Shown here: piece after piece, positions 21,997 to 59,092 of the stretch
Layout of the letters: each line of letters begins with the position of its first letter
Position numbering within the stretch: the stretch's first letter is position 1
From: Desulfosporosinus sp. Sb-LF
Lineage (GTDB): Bacteria; Bacillota; Desulfitobacteriia; Desulfitobacteriales; Desulfitobacteriaceae
Direction: 5' to 3'
Assembly: GCF_004766055.1 (NCBI RefSeq)
Contig: NZ_SPQR01000007.1
Coordinates: forward strand, 62,001-126,000
Length of the DNA stretch: 64,000 nt
Notes under the pieces: generated by a model
Database searches by the model: none
The model's input: the letters and a program-made list of their open reading frames with translations, nothing else
Told to the model about the DNA's origin: nothing
Position numbers and translations under genes: made by a program

Positions 21997-22251
21997 ATGA
22001 ATCGAAAAATGCGTTGGCTTTGGCGTTTTTTAACAATTTTAGTCTTCTTAGGGCTTATTCATACCCTGTTTATTCCTCCACAAACAAAGGCTTTTATTTC
22101 GTGGTCGGAAGACCAAACGTGGGTACGAAAATTACAAGGAGAAATGAAACAATGGCAAAGATTATCGCAAGATCTCCCTTCTAGTATTGAAGTAGAAGTT
22201 CGTCGCCTGTGGAAGGATTTTAGACCAAATGGAGACGGTAAAGAAGTTTAA
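21997..22251 (+). CDS. Small membrane-anchored protein, unknown function
   Basis: 84-aa protein with a basic start (MNRKMRWLWR), a membrane helix (about 9-27) and a 55-residue outside or inside tail rich in Trp, Lys and Glu (WSEDQTWVRKLQGEMKQW). I do not recognise a family. ATG at 21997 preceded by GGAAAGGA about seven bases upstream. It sits between the HD-domain gene and the HesB selenoprotein gene; 100 bases separate it from the latter. Confidence 0.6.
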   Translation: MNRKMRWLWRFLTILVFLGLIHTLFIPPQTKAFISWSEDQTWVRKLQGEMKQWQRLSQDLPSSIEVEVRRLWKDFRPNGDGKEV

Positions 22252-22351
22252 TTTTGAATCGTCATTGTGATGTTGTTTTTACGAGTTTGTCTTGCGAAAA
22301 ACTAAAAGTGTGGTATATTTAAGATTAATGTTAGTAGAAGGAGGATGAAAA

Positions 22352-22684
22352 ATGGTTGCTATTACTGAAATTGCTGCCCAGAAAGTTAAAGAAGTACTTA
22401 AAAATCAAAACAAAGAAAACGCTTTTCTTCGTCTCTATCTTGTAGGAGTTGGCTGAGGTGGGCCGAATTTCGGCATGACTCTGGATGAGTCAAAGACAGA
22501 TGAGGATATTCTTGATGTAGAATACGGTGTATCAATGGTAACGGACAAAAAACTTACTTCCTATTTAGAGGGAGCGACCGTTGATTTCATTGAATCCGCA
22601 CACGGCGGAGGATTTGAAATACGTACAGCGAAGAGCGCTGGTGGCGATAGCGGTTGCGGTGGAAGCTGCGGCGGTAGTTGTTAA
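22352..22684 (+). CDS. HesB/IscA-like selenoprotein (in-frame TGA = Sec35)
   Basis: 110-aa HesB/IscA-family protein interrupted by TGA at 22454-22456 (codon 35). The frame continues through it with unbroken family sequence: LRLYLVGVG-U-GGPNFGMTLDE, where homologues have GVGCGG. Sec therefore replaces the first conserved metal- or cluster-binding cysteine; the C-terminal cysteines are in a Gly-rich tail (SGCGGSCGGSC). A SECIS-like hairpin follows the TGA, with stem GACTC/GAGTC (22477-22491), loop TGGAT, some 20 bases downstream, and a smaller GCCG/CGGC hairpin before it. ATG with AAGGAGG upstream. Its role is probably Fe-S carrier or redox. A sequencing error is unlikely because the cysteine codon TGC/TGT differs from TGA at exactly the conserved site. 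Confidence 0.88.
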
Positions 22685-22690
22685 TAATAA

Positions 22691-22718
22691 AGAGAGCTCA
22701 ATTATGGGCTCTCTTTTA
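22691..22718 (+). terminator. Terminator of the HesB selenoprotein gene
   Basis: AGAGAGC (22691-22697), 10-base loop, GCTCTCT (22708-22714) followed by TTTT, seven bases after the stop. Confidence 0.85.
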
Positions 22719-53890: not shown

Positions 53891-54898
53891 ATGGGACATT
53901 TGCTAGAAGTAAAAGACTTATGTACCTCCTTCTTTACCTATGCTGGTGAAGTTAAGGCTGTGGATGGTGTAAGCTTCTACTTAGACCAAGGAGAGGCTAT
54001 AGGTATTGTAGGAGAATCTGGCTGTGGTAAGAGTATTACTGTCCAATCCATAATGCGTTTAATTCCTAACCCTCCCGGTAAAATTATTGGGGGCAGTGTT
54101 AATTTTATAGGAGTGGACCTATTAAAGAAAAGTGAGAAACAAATGGAGTCTATCCGTGGAAAAGACATTAGTATGATTTTCCAGGATCCTATGACCTCCC
54201 TGAATCCAGTGCTCACGGTTGGGTTACAACTGACGGAGGTTCTTAAACGACATGAAGGGTTAACTGGTAAGGTAGCAAAAGATCGTGCAGTTGAGCTTTT
54301 AGAACTCGTGGGAATATCAAATCCCGAAAGCCGTTTAAAACAGTATCCTCATCAGTTTTCCGGTGGTATGCGTCAACGGGTTATGATTGCTCTGGCCTTG
54401 GCTTGTAACCCCAAATTGCTCATTGCAGATGAGCCCACGACCGCTTTGGACGTGACGATCCAGGCTCAGATTTTAGAGTTGATGCAAGACCTTAAGAGTA
54501 AGATTAATACCTCTATTATCATGATTACCCATGATTTAGGGGTTGTAGCTGGGCTTTGCAGCAGGGTAATTGTTATGTACGGCGGAAAAATAGTTGAAAG
54601 TGGCAGCACAAATGATATTTACTATAATCCAAAACATCCCTATACTTGGGGCCTTTTAAAATCAGTCCCTCGCTTGGATGCAGATAAGAACACAAAACTT
54701 ATCCCTATCCCAGGAACACCTATCGATCTTCTTAATTCTCCAAAAGGATGTAGATTTGCACCTCGTTGTTCTCACTGTATGCGGATTTGCACAGAACAAA
54801 CACCAGAATATACTCAACTCGGCGAAGGTCACCAAGTGGCTTGTTGGCTACAACATCCTCAGGCTCCTAAAGTAGCTGAGCTGGAAGGGAGAGTGTAG
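53891..54898 (+). CDS. oppD: Peptide ABC importer ATPase OppD
   Basis: 335-aa ATPase with Walker A GESGCGKS, signature [15 protein letters not shown], Walker [13 protein letters not shown] and H-loop ITHDLG. The C-terminal extension (about 270-320) has the oligopeptide-type [21 protein letters not shown] cysteine cluster, which holds a [4Fe-4S] cluster in a Thermoanaerobacter DppD. ATG with AGGAGGA, 13 bases after oppC. Nearly the same domain order as the dppD copy at 57.1 kb. Confidence 0.94.
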
Positions 54899-54901
54899 AC
54901 C

Positions 54902-55882
54902 ATGTCAGTACGTGAAGAATATATCTTAGAAATCAATAATTTGGTCAAACACTTCCCCTTAGATGGCGGTTTGTTTTCCAAGAAACAACAAGTAGTACAG
55001 GCTGTTAATGGAATTAGCTTCAAGGTAAAAAGAGGGGAAACCCTAGGGATAGTTGGGGAAAGTGGCTGTGGTAAATCAACGGCCGGAAGGTCAATTATTC
55101 GCCTTTATGAACCTACTGCTGGTCAAATCATCTTTGAAGGTAAGGACGTGACTAAGGCTAAAGGGAATGACTTGATGGAGCTTCGTCGCAATATGCAAAT
55201 GATTTTTCAAGATCCCTATGCTTCGCTAAATCCTCGAATGACTGTGGGGGATATTGTGGCGGAAGCCTTGGATATTCATAAATTAGCTAAAGGGCAGCAA
55301 CGCACAAATCGGATTTTTGAATTGCTTAAAATTGTAGGGTTAAATCCAGAACATGCCAACCGGTTCCCCCATGAGTTTTCGGGAGGACAACGGCAGAGAA
55401 TAGGTATTGCTAGAGCTCTGGCAGTTAACCCAAGTTTGATAATTTGCGATGAGCCTATCTCTGCGCTGGATGTATCTATCCAGGCTCAAGTTGTAAATAT
55501 GTTAGAGGAATTACAAGAAAAGTTGGGGTTAACATATTTGTTTATTGCTCATGACTTATCAATGGTTAAGTATATTTCGCACCGCATTGCGGTCATGTAT
55601 TTGGGTCGAATTGTTGAGCTTACTAGCAGTAACGATCTTTATATAAATCCAATGCATCCGTATACTCAAGGATTGCTAAGTGCTATTCCTATTCCTGATC
55701 CAATTGTAGAAGGAAAACGACAGCGCATTGTACCTACTGGAAGTGTGCCGAGTCCGATCGACCCTCCTTCGGGTTGTTATTTCCGTACCCGATGTCCACA
55801 TGCTATAGCGGTTTGTGCTGAGGAAGCGCCAGTCTTAAAAGATATGGGTAATAATCACTTAGTTGCGTGTCACCTAGTTTAG
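54902..55882 (+). CDS. oppF: Peptide ABC importer ATPase OppF
   Basis: 326-aa partner ATPase. Walker [10 protein letters not shown], signature [15 protein letters not shown], Walker B LIICDEPISALD and C-terminal PSGCYFRTRCPHAIAVCAEEAPVL are typical OppF/DppF. ATG two bases after oppD. It completes the importer and is followed by a terminator 15 bases on. Confidence 0.94.
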   Translation: MSVREEYILEINNLVKHFPLDGGLFSKKQQVVQAVNGISFKVKRGETLGIVGESGCGKSTAGRSIIRLYEPTAGQIIFEGKDVTKAKGNDLMELRRNMQMIFQDPYASLNPRMTVGDIVAEALDIHKLAKGQQRTNRIFELLKIVGLNPEHANRFPHEFSGGQRQRIGIARALAVNPSLIICDEPISALDVSIQAQVVNMLEELQEKLGLTYLFIAHDLSMVKYISHRIAVMYLGRIVELTSSNDLYINPMHPYTQGLLSAIPIPDPIVEGKRQRIVPTGSVPSPIDPPSGCYFRTRCPHAIAVCAEEAPVLKDMGNNHLVACHLV

Positions 55883-56190: not shown

Positions 56191-56880
56191 ATGAAAGGTA
56201 AGCTCATTATCATCGAGGCGGGTGATGGAAGTGGAAAGGCTACGCAGACTGAGGAATTATACCGAAGATTAGTATTAGAAAAGTTTCTTGTAAAGAAGAT
56301 AGAGTTTCCGAATTATACAAGTGAATCTGCCGCTTTAGTTAAGATGTATCTTAAGGGGGAATTTGGTACTAGCCCAGATGAGATAAGTCCGTATGTCGCA
56401 TCTACATTTTATACTGTAGATCGCTACGCTTCTTTTAAGAAAGAATGGGAAGAGTTTTATAATAGCGGTGGCATTATACTCAGCGATCGCTATACAACCT
56501 CTAATATGGTTCATCAAGCTGCAAAAATAGCGGATGAAGCTGAAAGAAATAAATACTTAGACTGGTTATATGATTTTGAATATCGTAAGTTTAGGTTGCC
56601 TATTCCAGATTGTGTAATTTTTCTTGACATGCCTCCAGAGGTTAGTTTTGGTCTTATCTCTAAGAGGGCTAATAAATCTTCTGATATTCAGAGAGATATT
56701 CATGAGGCTGATGAACAATATCTTATCAAATCGTACAATAACGCAAATTGGATTGCGAGTAAGTATCATTGGCATAAAGTAGAGTGTGTAAGTAATAGCC
56801 GCCTTAAAACGATCCAGGAAATTCATGATGAAGTTTACAGGCTGGTCAGTGCCGAGTTGTTAAGGCCGCAAGAATATTAA
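56191..56880 (+). CDS. tmk: Thymidylate kinase-like protein
   Basis: 229-aa P-loop kinase of the dTMP kinase family; would phosphorylate dTMP to dTDP. Start KGKLIIIEAGDGSGKATQTEELYRRL: the canonical Walker A S/T after GK is alanine (GKATQ), with Thr next. DRYTTSNMVHQ is the DR(Y/H) substrate box, and LDMPPEV with SKRANKSSDIQRDIHE is the lid. The alanine variant occurs in a group of clostridial paralogues, so a standard or secondary Tmk role is open. ATG with GGGGGAG. It lies isolated between two peptide-transporter loci and ends at its own terminator. Confidence 0.85.
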   Translation: MKGKLIIIEAGDGSGKATQTEELYRRLVLEKFLVKKIEFPNYTSESAALVKMYLKGEFGTSPDEISPYVASTFYTVDRYASFKKEWEEFYNSGGIILSDRYTTSNMVHQAAKIADEAERNKYLDWLYDFEYRKFRLPIPDCVIFLDMPPEVSFGLISKRANKSSDIQRDIHEADEQYLIKSYNNANWIASKYHWHKVECVSNSRLKTIQEIHDEVYRLVSAELLRPQEY

Positions 56881-57017: not shown

Positions 57018-57114
57018 TGTACGTACTGTGGGTATCGTGAAAGAAAAAGTGTCTAGCCTCTATACAGGCAGATTATATATTGGGGCAGAAGCTTATTGAT
57101 GAGGGGGAAAAGTG

Positions 57115-58110
57115 ATGAGTCAAGAACTCTTACTTCAAGTAAAGGATCTTAGAACTCACTTCTACACAGAAGCTGGCGTTGTAAAGGCGGTCGACGGAGT
57201 TAATCTCGAGATCAATAAAGGGGAAACTCTCGGTGTTGTAGGAGAATCTGGGTCAGGAAAAAGTATTACAGCCATGTCGATTATGCGTCTCATTCCTGTA
57301 CCTCCCGGGAAAATTGTAAGCGGGGAAATAATCTTTAATGGTAAAGATCTGCTCAAAACGTCAGAATCTGAAATGATGAAGATCCGCGGTAATGAAATTG
57401 CTATGATTTTTCAGGATCCGATGACTTCCTTGAATCCCGTGCTTACGGTTGGGGATCAAATCATGGAAGCTATAGTACTTCATCAGAATGTCGGACGCTC
57501 AGAGGCTAAGAAAAAGGCCATTGAGATGTTGAAAAAGGTAGGTATTCCTGAGGCTGAAAGTCGCGTCAAGAATTACCCCCACCAATTTAGTGGTGGTATG
57601 AGGCAACGTGTCATGATCGCCATGGCTTTGTCATGCAATCCGAAACTACTCGTGGCTGACGAGCCAACCACTGCACTTGATGTGACGATACAAGCACAGA
57701 TTTTAGACTTAATGAACAACCTGAAAAAGGATTTTGGTACGGCAATAATGTTGATTACCCACGATCTAGGGGTTGTCGCTGAATTATGTCAAAAGGTTTT
57801 AGTTATGTATGCTGGAAACACGGTTGAATACACGGACGCTAAGTCATTGTTTGCAATGCCCAAACATCCGTATACTTGGGGTTTGCTAGGGTCGTTACCT
57901 AAACTTGAAGAGTCTGAAAAACAACGTCTAGAACCGATTGAAGGGCAGCCACCTGATTTGCGCCATTTACCACAGGGCTGTAATTTCGCACCGCGGTGTA
58001 AACACAAGAAGCCCCTTTGCGAACAGCAAAAACCAGCCCTGCATGAGATTGAACCTGGCCATTTCGTCAGTTGCCTCTTATATGGAGAAGGGGGTAACAG
58101 GAATGACTGA
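57115..58110 (+). CDS. dppD: Peptide ABC importer ATPase DppD
   Basis: 331-aa ATPase of the oligopeptide/dipeptide type: [36 protein letters not shown], then a C-terminal [23 protein letters not shown] cysteine region. Start at ATG 57115 with GAGGGGG at 57101-57107; GTG 57112 is the alternative. It resembles oppD of the neighbouring operon (IMRLIPxPPGKI, [11 protein letters not shown]) and overlaps dppF by eight bases. No binding protein or permease follows in this locus. Confidence 0.93.
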
Positions 58111-59092
58111 AACTAAAAGCAAGACGGAAACGTTATTAAAAGTAGAAAATCTGCAAAAGTATTTCCCGATTCGAAAGGGAATTGTTGTTCAAAAGCACGT
58201 AGGGGATGTTAAAGCTGTTGATCGGGTATCCTTCGATATTCGACGTGGGGAGACGCTCGGCATGGTTGGGGAAAGTGGGTGTGGAAAATCAACGATTGGT
58301 CGAACGATCTTAAGATTACTTGAACCAACTGCTGGAAAAGTAATCTTTGAAGGAAAGGTTCTTAATGATCTGTCTGGTGAAGAAATGCGCAAAATGCGTA
58401 GTCAAATGCAAATGATTTTCCAAGACCCCTATGCCTCTTTGAATCCTCGAATGAGGGTCGGGGACATCATTGGAGAACCCATTCTGATCCATGGGACTTC
58501 CAATCGTGCTGAACGTGAGAAAAGGGTTCGTAAACTTTTAGATGTTGTTGGCTTAAGTCCTTACCATGGAGCACGCTACCCGCACGAATTCTCGGGTGGC
58601 CAACGTCAACGGATTGGAATTGCCAGGGCCTTGTCTGTTAACCCAAAGCTCATAGTTTGCGATGAACCTGTGTCTGCCTTGGACGTGTCGATCCAAGCTC
58701 AGGTTATTAACTTATTGGAAGATTTGCAGCGTGAGTTTGATTTGACATATCTATTTATTGCTCATGATTTATCAGTAGTTAAACATATAAGTAATCGGAT
58801 TGTGGTTATGTACTTGGGTAAAATGGTAGAACTCACAGATTCTGATGAACTTTACAATAATCCACAACATCCTTATACGATAGCACTGTTATCAGCAATC
58901 CCAGTTCCGGATCCGACGGTTAAGAAAGATCGCATTATCCTGAAGGGGGATGTTCCAAGCCCAGTTAATCCCCCTTCAGGTTGCCGTTTTCATACTCGTT
59001 GCCCAAAAGCGCAAGGGATTTGCAAGGAGCAGGATCCAGAGTTTAGAGATATAGGTGCTGGTCATTTCGTGGCCTGTCACTTGGTAAAGTAA
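58103..59092 (+). CDS. dppF: Peptide ABC importer ATPase DppF
   Basis: 329-aa ATPase: [37 protein letters not shown] and [24 protein letters not shown]. Start at ATG 58103, inside the end of dppD, with AAGGGGG at 58088-58094. The pair dppD-dppF lacks its own membrane subunits; it may power permeases encoded elsewhere or be a spare duplicate of oppDF. Its stop codon is the first base pair region of a 36-bp perfect hairpin. Confidence 0.93.

Follow-up and report, generated by a model that had tools for sequence, protein, structure and literature searches.

A divergent member of the HesB-like selenoprotein family in Desulfosporosinus, with probable selenocysteine at the first conserved cysteine of an IscA-type domain

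Within a 64,000-nucleotide stretch of the Desulfosporosinus sp. Sb-LF genome (hereafter the window), we identified a gene that belongs to the HesB-like selenoprotein family and whose in-frame TGA at codon 35 is, on comparative evidence, almost certainly read as selenocysteine (Sec). The initial annotation of this DNA had proposed a selenoprotein here, and that proposal is supported by Sec machinery in the genome, a TGA kept throughout the genus, a freeze of synonymous codon choice behind the TGA and covariation in the RNA stem that follows it.

The gene is a 110-codon ORF on the forward strand (22352-22684), which is in frame on either side of the TGA at 22454-22456 and ends with a TAA at 22682-22684. 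Open frames on both sides and a good ribosome site had been described previously; the frame and its coordinates are borne out, with GGAGG 7 nt before the ATG. Gene callers had also been expected to miss roughly the first 40 codons, and the standard code indeed calls only a 69-aa ORF at 22475-22684. The gene is thus confirmed to be cut short by standard calling, and it is a core, syntenic gene of the whole genus. Three tail Cys residues in a Gly-rich context, likewise described before, are present in the translation. The features of the locus are as follows.

22292..22319, + strand: promoter-like site TTGCGA-16 nt-TATATT (9/12 consensus match, TG before the second hexamer; by itself no evidence of function)
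22340..22344, + strand: ribosome binding site GGAGG, 7 nt 5' of the ATG at 22352 (from the sequence; relatives likewise have AGGAG(G) ahead of the ATG)
22352..22684, + strand: HesB/IscA-like selenoprotein gene, 110 residues, Sec predicted at 35 (translation, PF01521 and TIGR00049 above cut-off, conservation in the genus)
22454..22456, + strand: TGA, codon 35, almost certainly read as Sec in the motif U-G-G-P (TGA at the same codon in 33 distinct genes; in alignments it falls on the first Cys that IscA-fold proteins conserve)
22462..22474, + strand: lower hairpin GCCGA-ATT-TCGGC (folds; conserved in the genus; 71% of cells paired across the phylum)
22476..22492, + strand: predicted SECIS apical hairpin TGACTC-TGGAT-GAGTCA (synonymous freeze in TGA genes only; 98.7% of cells paired; fits the bacterial SECIS model)
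22653..22681, + strand: Cys-rich tail codons, GCGGSCGGSC, replacing the CGC motif of A-type carriers (translation, tail statistics)
22689..22716, + strand: intrinsic-terminator-like hairpin 3' of the gene (12 pairs, then a short T-rich tail)

A hairpin with stem GACTC/GAGTC and loop TGGAT, annotated initially at about 20 nt after the TGA, was recovered with a stem one pair longer (TGACTC at 22476-22481, TGGAT at 22482-22486, GAGTCA at 22487-22492); the stem starts 19 nt and the loop 25 nt after the TGA. Its assignment to the range of bacterial SECIS elements holds against the published limits (a loop of 3-9 nt, an upper stem of 4-16 bp, a G within the first two nucleotides of the loop, a distance of 16-37 nt to the UGA and an MFE <= -7.5): the loop has 5 nt, the stem 6 bp, G occupies loop position 2, the distance is 25 nt and the MFE, computed for the 51 nt spanning both hairpins, is -14.9 kcal/mol. 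Folding of this single sequence is nevertheless weak evidence, since dinucleotide shuffles give a z of only -1.7 (9 of 200 as good). Rfam matches are weak, lie below gathering scores and were taken as chance.

Comparison among homologues places the structure well beyond what chance would give. Where the amino acid is identical between sequences, codons of 33 distinct TGA genes have a synonymous difference of 0.054 at positions 36-47 versus 0.45 outside (permutation p = 5e-5, the minimum attainable with 20,000 permutations and not a strict probability because the rows are related), whereas nine Cys homologues give 0.48 versus 0.476 (p = 0.52). Synonymous variation in the approximately 36 nt after the TGA is therefore 8-fold below that elsewhere in the TGA genes, but not in the Cys homologues, which are fewer and more divergent and have similar variation outside the region (0.476 vs 0.45). 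Most of the nine code for an almost identical peptide without the freeze, and for this reason we reject the idea that the hairpin is a mere by-product of protein coding. Across 25 divergent Bacillota Sec genes, 98.7% of cells in the apical stem are paired and compensatory changes affect both partners in three of its six pairs, with slid controls below 50%; the lower hairpin is looser (71% of cells paired in the 25 sequences). The case is carried by the phylum-wide covariation and by the difference between TGA genes and Cys homologues; sequence comparison thus shows RNA structure in the next ~36 nt to be under selection only when a UGA is present.

A check of the genome for sel genes had been suggested, with their absence to count against a selenoprotein. 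They are present: the genome has selA, selB, selD and a tRNA-Sec (selC) with anticodon TCA. Its selD contains an in-frame TGA of its own, in G-U-G-C-K, matching the UxxK motif listed for Sec-SelD (PMC13188914). By established bacterial Sec decoding, SelA and selenophosphate from SelD would produce Sec-tRNA-Sec, and SelB carrying this tRNA would bind the hairpin and allow Sec to be inserted at codon 35. The predicted product has an IscA-type fold in which Sec replaces the first conserved Cys, and it ends in a flexible tail rich in Cys. The genome also contains a second selD-like gene (L058:1420-2445; G000:C4:32862-33701), whose frame begins beyond the N-terminal part and so does not include the U/C region of the active site; an in-frame TAA lies upstream, and the gene may be a remnant.

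Conservation of the gene is nearly complete in the genus. We found a homologue in 29 of 30 Desulfosporosinus genomes, the exception being a 67% complete assembly, and all 29 have a TGA copy; the nearest named relatives are all Desulfosporosinus. Homologous sequence flanks the in-frame UGA on both sides, as expected of a selenoprotein. Close relatives with an ordinary stop and no conserved downstream sequence had been named as the pattern that would argue against Sec, and what relatives have instead is the TGA together with its downstream sequence. The suggested alignment for U/C alternation gave 33 distinct genes with TGA versus nine with Cys at the same position. Under the standard code the TGA is a stop, and codon 35 could on that basis be an ordinary stop or a nonsense mutation in a decaying gene whose remnant is the 69-aa ORF. 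This seems to us extremely unlikely given the same TGA in 33 distinct genes, intact frames on both sides, synteny, an RNA constraint linked to the TGA and Sec machinery in the genome. A pseudogene is rejected on the conservation pattern.

The TGA copies of Desulfosporosinus sit at one locus, in which an HD protein, an 84-aa ORF, the selenoprotein gene, an ACT protein and DUF711 follow one another, with small losses in some genomes; the Cys copies are located elsewhere. Neighbours in the window are syntenic and comprise an M3-type peptidase, TPR, an HD domain, the conserved 84-aa ORF, an ACT domain and DUF711. No functional operon with these neighbours is indicated, and a terminator-like site follows the selenoprotein gene. 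The 84-aa ORF (window 21997-22251) is without a Pfam match and lies directly upstream of the selenoprotein gene across the genus; it is also directly upstream in more distant TGA relatives (L047, L049, L051, L052, L053), with 45-51% identity. Elsewhere in the window, ATPase genes of oligopeptide-type ABC transporters form two pairs in succession (53891-55882 and 57112-59092) that look duplicated by eye, and a thymidylate-kinase-like gene, also read by eye, lies between them (56191-56880).

In a 71-row tree, many branches of which are weak, the Desulfosporosinus Cys forms are placed among the Sec forms, which fits duplication followed by a Sec-to-Cys change. Sec forms and Cys paralogues occur together in several Desulfosporosinus genomes. 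Such coexisting forms are naturally paired material for a question that the literature still describes as open: what an IscA-fold protein gains from selenium. One Desulfosporosinus paralogue (L050:3001-3366) lacks both Sec and Cys at position 35; it reads GESSDGP there, with Ser encoded by AGT, and it retains the Cys-rich tail.

The HesB/IscA-like assignment made initially is supported by family models and structure matches. With the TGA residue set as Cys, the protein matches PF01521 at 36.6 bits (cut-off 26.3) and TIGR00049 at 68.7 bits (cut-off 58.8), and among solved structures its matches include HI1723, AQ_1857, IscA and SufA. Three alignments (HI1723, AQ_1857, IscA/yfhF) put residue 35 opposite the first conserved Cys, in agreement with the earlier placement of the TGA at the site of the first invariant Cys. 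An AlphaFold model has a mean pLDDT of 81.5, with the tail mostly below 50; its nine PDB matches at E <= 0.001 are all IscA-fold entries, one of them a structure with a [2Fe-2S] cluster. Both sequence and model thus assign the IscA fold of A-type Fe-S carriers to the protein. A PF01521 search of the organism's own genome found nothing, the window gene included, probably because the TGA lowers the score (the Cys-substituted protein passes the cut-off); a TIGR00049 search recovered the gene. It is the only IscA-fold gene detected in this genome, and since PF01521 missed even this one, the absence of others is not firm.

Narrower models place the protein less readily. Its scores fall far short of the equivalog cut-offs for ErpA, SufA and IscA, and it reaches the cut-off of neither HesB_rel_seleno TIGR01911 (50.9 vs 66.35 bits) nor IscA_HesB_Se NF038090 (69.4 vs 85 bits). 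Its UGGP fits the published UxGP motif at the first HesB Cys. No match in 299 genomes of the phylum reaches the TIGR01911 cut-off, though at E <= 1e-5 the model matches 60 of the genomes and 52 of the 68 matches contain TGA, which suggests that the cut-off is tight for this phylum. We therefore claim membership by motif and by homology with the published HesB-like selenoprotein family rather than by an NCBIfam model. In a subgroup of TGA relatives from another family of the phylum (L104, L112, L115) the motif at the Sec position is UGGM instead of UxGP; some HesB-like selenoproteins may therefore fall outside the published motif.

What residue 35 does is less certain. Our reading of the literature turned up no member of the HesB-like selenoprotein family with an established function. 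The initial annotation went from the position of Sec to a role, a selenium ligand that would change the redox behaviour of an A-type Fe-S carrier, and this step is not supported. The A-type carriers IscA, SufA and ErpA use the first Cys and a C-terminal CGC as ligands; the window protein has a different set, in which the first position is Sec and CGC is absent. CGC occurs in none of 59 Sec forms, of which 42 have three Cys in the last 24 residues, eight have two, eight have one and one has none. Our best guess is that Sec35 and the tail thiols would form a soft-ligand site, making this an A-type-like protein that handles Fe-S or metal in an anaerobe. Ligation of a metal or Fe-S by Sec35 is our first choice, an uncertain inference to which we give about an even chance; fold and position make a Se-ligated Fe-S cluster plausible, on evidence that is incomplete. 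Were selenium to ligate a cluster, this would be a Fe-S protein of an unusual kind.

The same tail statistics can be read differently. Since CGC is missing from all 59 Sec forms and most keep at least one tail Cys, Sec35 might instead be a redox thiol-selenol that forms a selenenylsulfide with a tail Cys and is no ligand for metal or Fe-S, and a 2026 review anticipates that most selenoproteins still to be characterised have redox roles (PMC13188914). We rank this second, as a tentative alternative with clearly lower probability, because the protein shares the fold of IscA, for which one matching structure holds a [2Fe-2S] cluster, and because the tail of at least one Sec form offers no Cys for pairing. 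A role in selenium metabolism, such as carrying or delivering selenium, is suggested by a Cys paralogue of Desulfosporosinus sp. BG (L043:976-3339) right behind ORFs that we take to be a class V aminotransferase, SelD and YedF, with a small ORF resembling DUF3343. That neighbourhood was seen at this one locus and was not repeated at the other Cys loci examined, where the neighbours are gltX or genes of modA-like, radA-like or Mo-enzyme-like type. Within the window, no sel genes adjoin the Sec form; we regard such a role as improbable. Returning to ligation by Sec35, a bolder version would make the Sec form, as the only IscA-fold protein detected in the genome, the cell's A-type carrier: a natural selenolate-ligated Fe-S transfer protein that holds a cluster or iron via selenium and a rebuilt CxxxCxxxC tail. 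This is a rather unlikely proposal.

Comparison with known systems places the gene in an established family. The initial annotation had implied novelty, which does not stand: HesB-like selenoproteins were counted as known in 2005 (PMC1242214), formed one of the 25 families in a 2006 analysis of bacterial selenoproteins (PMC1794560) and are listed in the 2026 review with the motif UxGP and the model TIGR01911 (PMC13188914). To this family the window gene adds a new and divergent member, from a branch below the NCBIfam cut-offs. It shares with the family (TIGR01911, NF038090) an IscA-type domain with Sec at the first conserved Cys, the UxGP motif (here UGGP), small size, a SECIS within the coding region and occurrence in anaerobic Bacillota; it differs in lying outside the curated score range and in its CxxxCxxxC tail, which is common to its Desulfosporosinus relatives. 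With the A-type carriers IscA, SufA and ErpA it has in common the fold, the position of residue 35 and a TIGR00049 score above cut-off, whereas Sec in place of Cys, the UGGP motif and the lack of a CGC tail in Sec forms set it apart.

For the HesB-like selenoprotein MMJJ_08070 of Methanococcus maripaludis, mutagenesis and 75Se labelling demonstrated the Sec according to work cited in PMC11097638, and an unpublished observation quoted there has the disruption mutant still fixing nitrogen. As far as that description goes, the two are alike as HesB-like selenoproteins distantly related to IscA; MMJJ_08070 differs in being archaeal, and archaeal SECIS elements are usually in the 3' UTR. Closer at hand is the HesB-like protein of Desulfitobacterium hafniense, a related organism in the same lineage, which has undergone a Sec-to-Cys change and has a remnant SECIS (PMC1794560, Fig. 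4). The window gene, in contrast to that Cys form, appears to keep both Sec and an intact SECIS.
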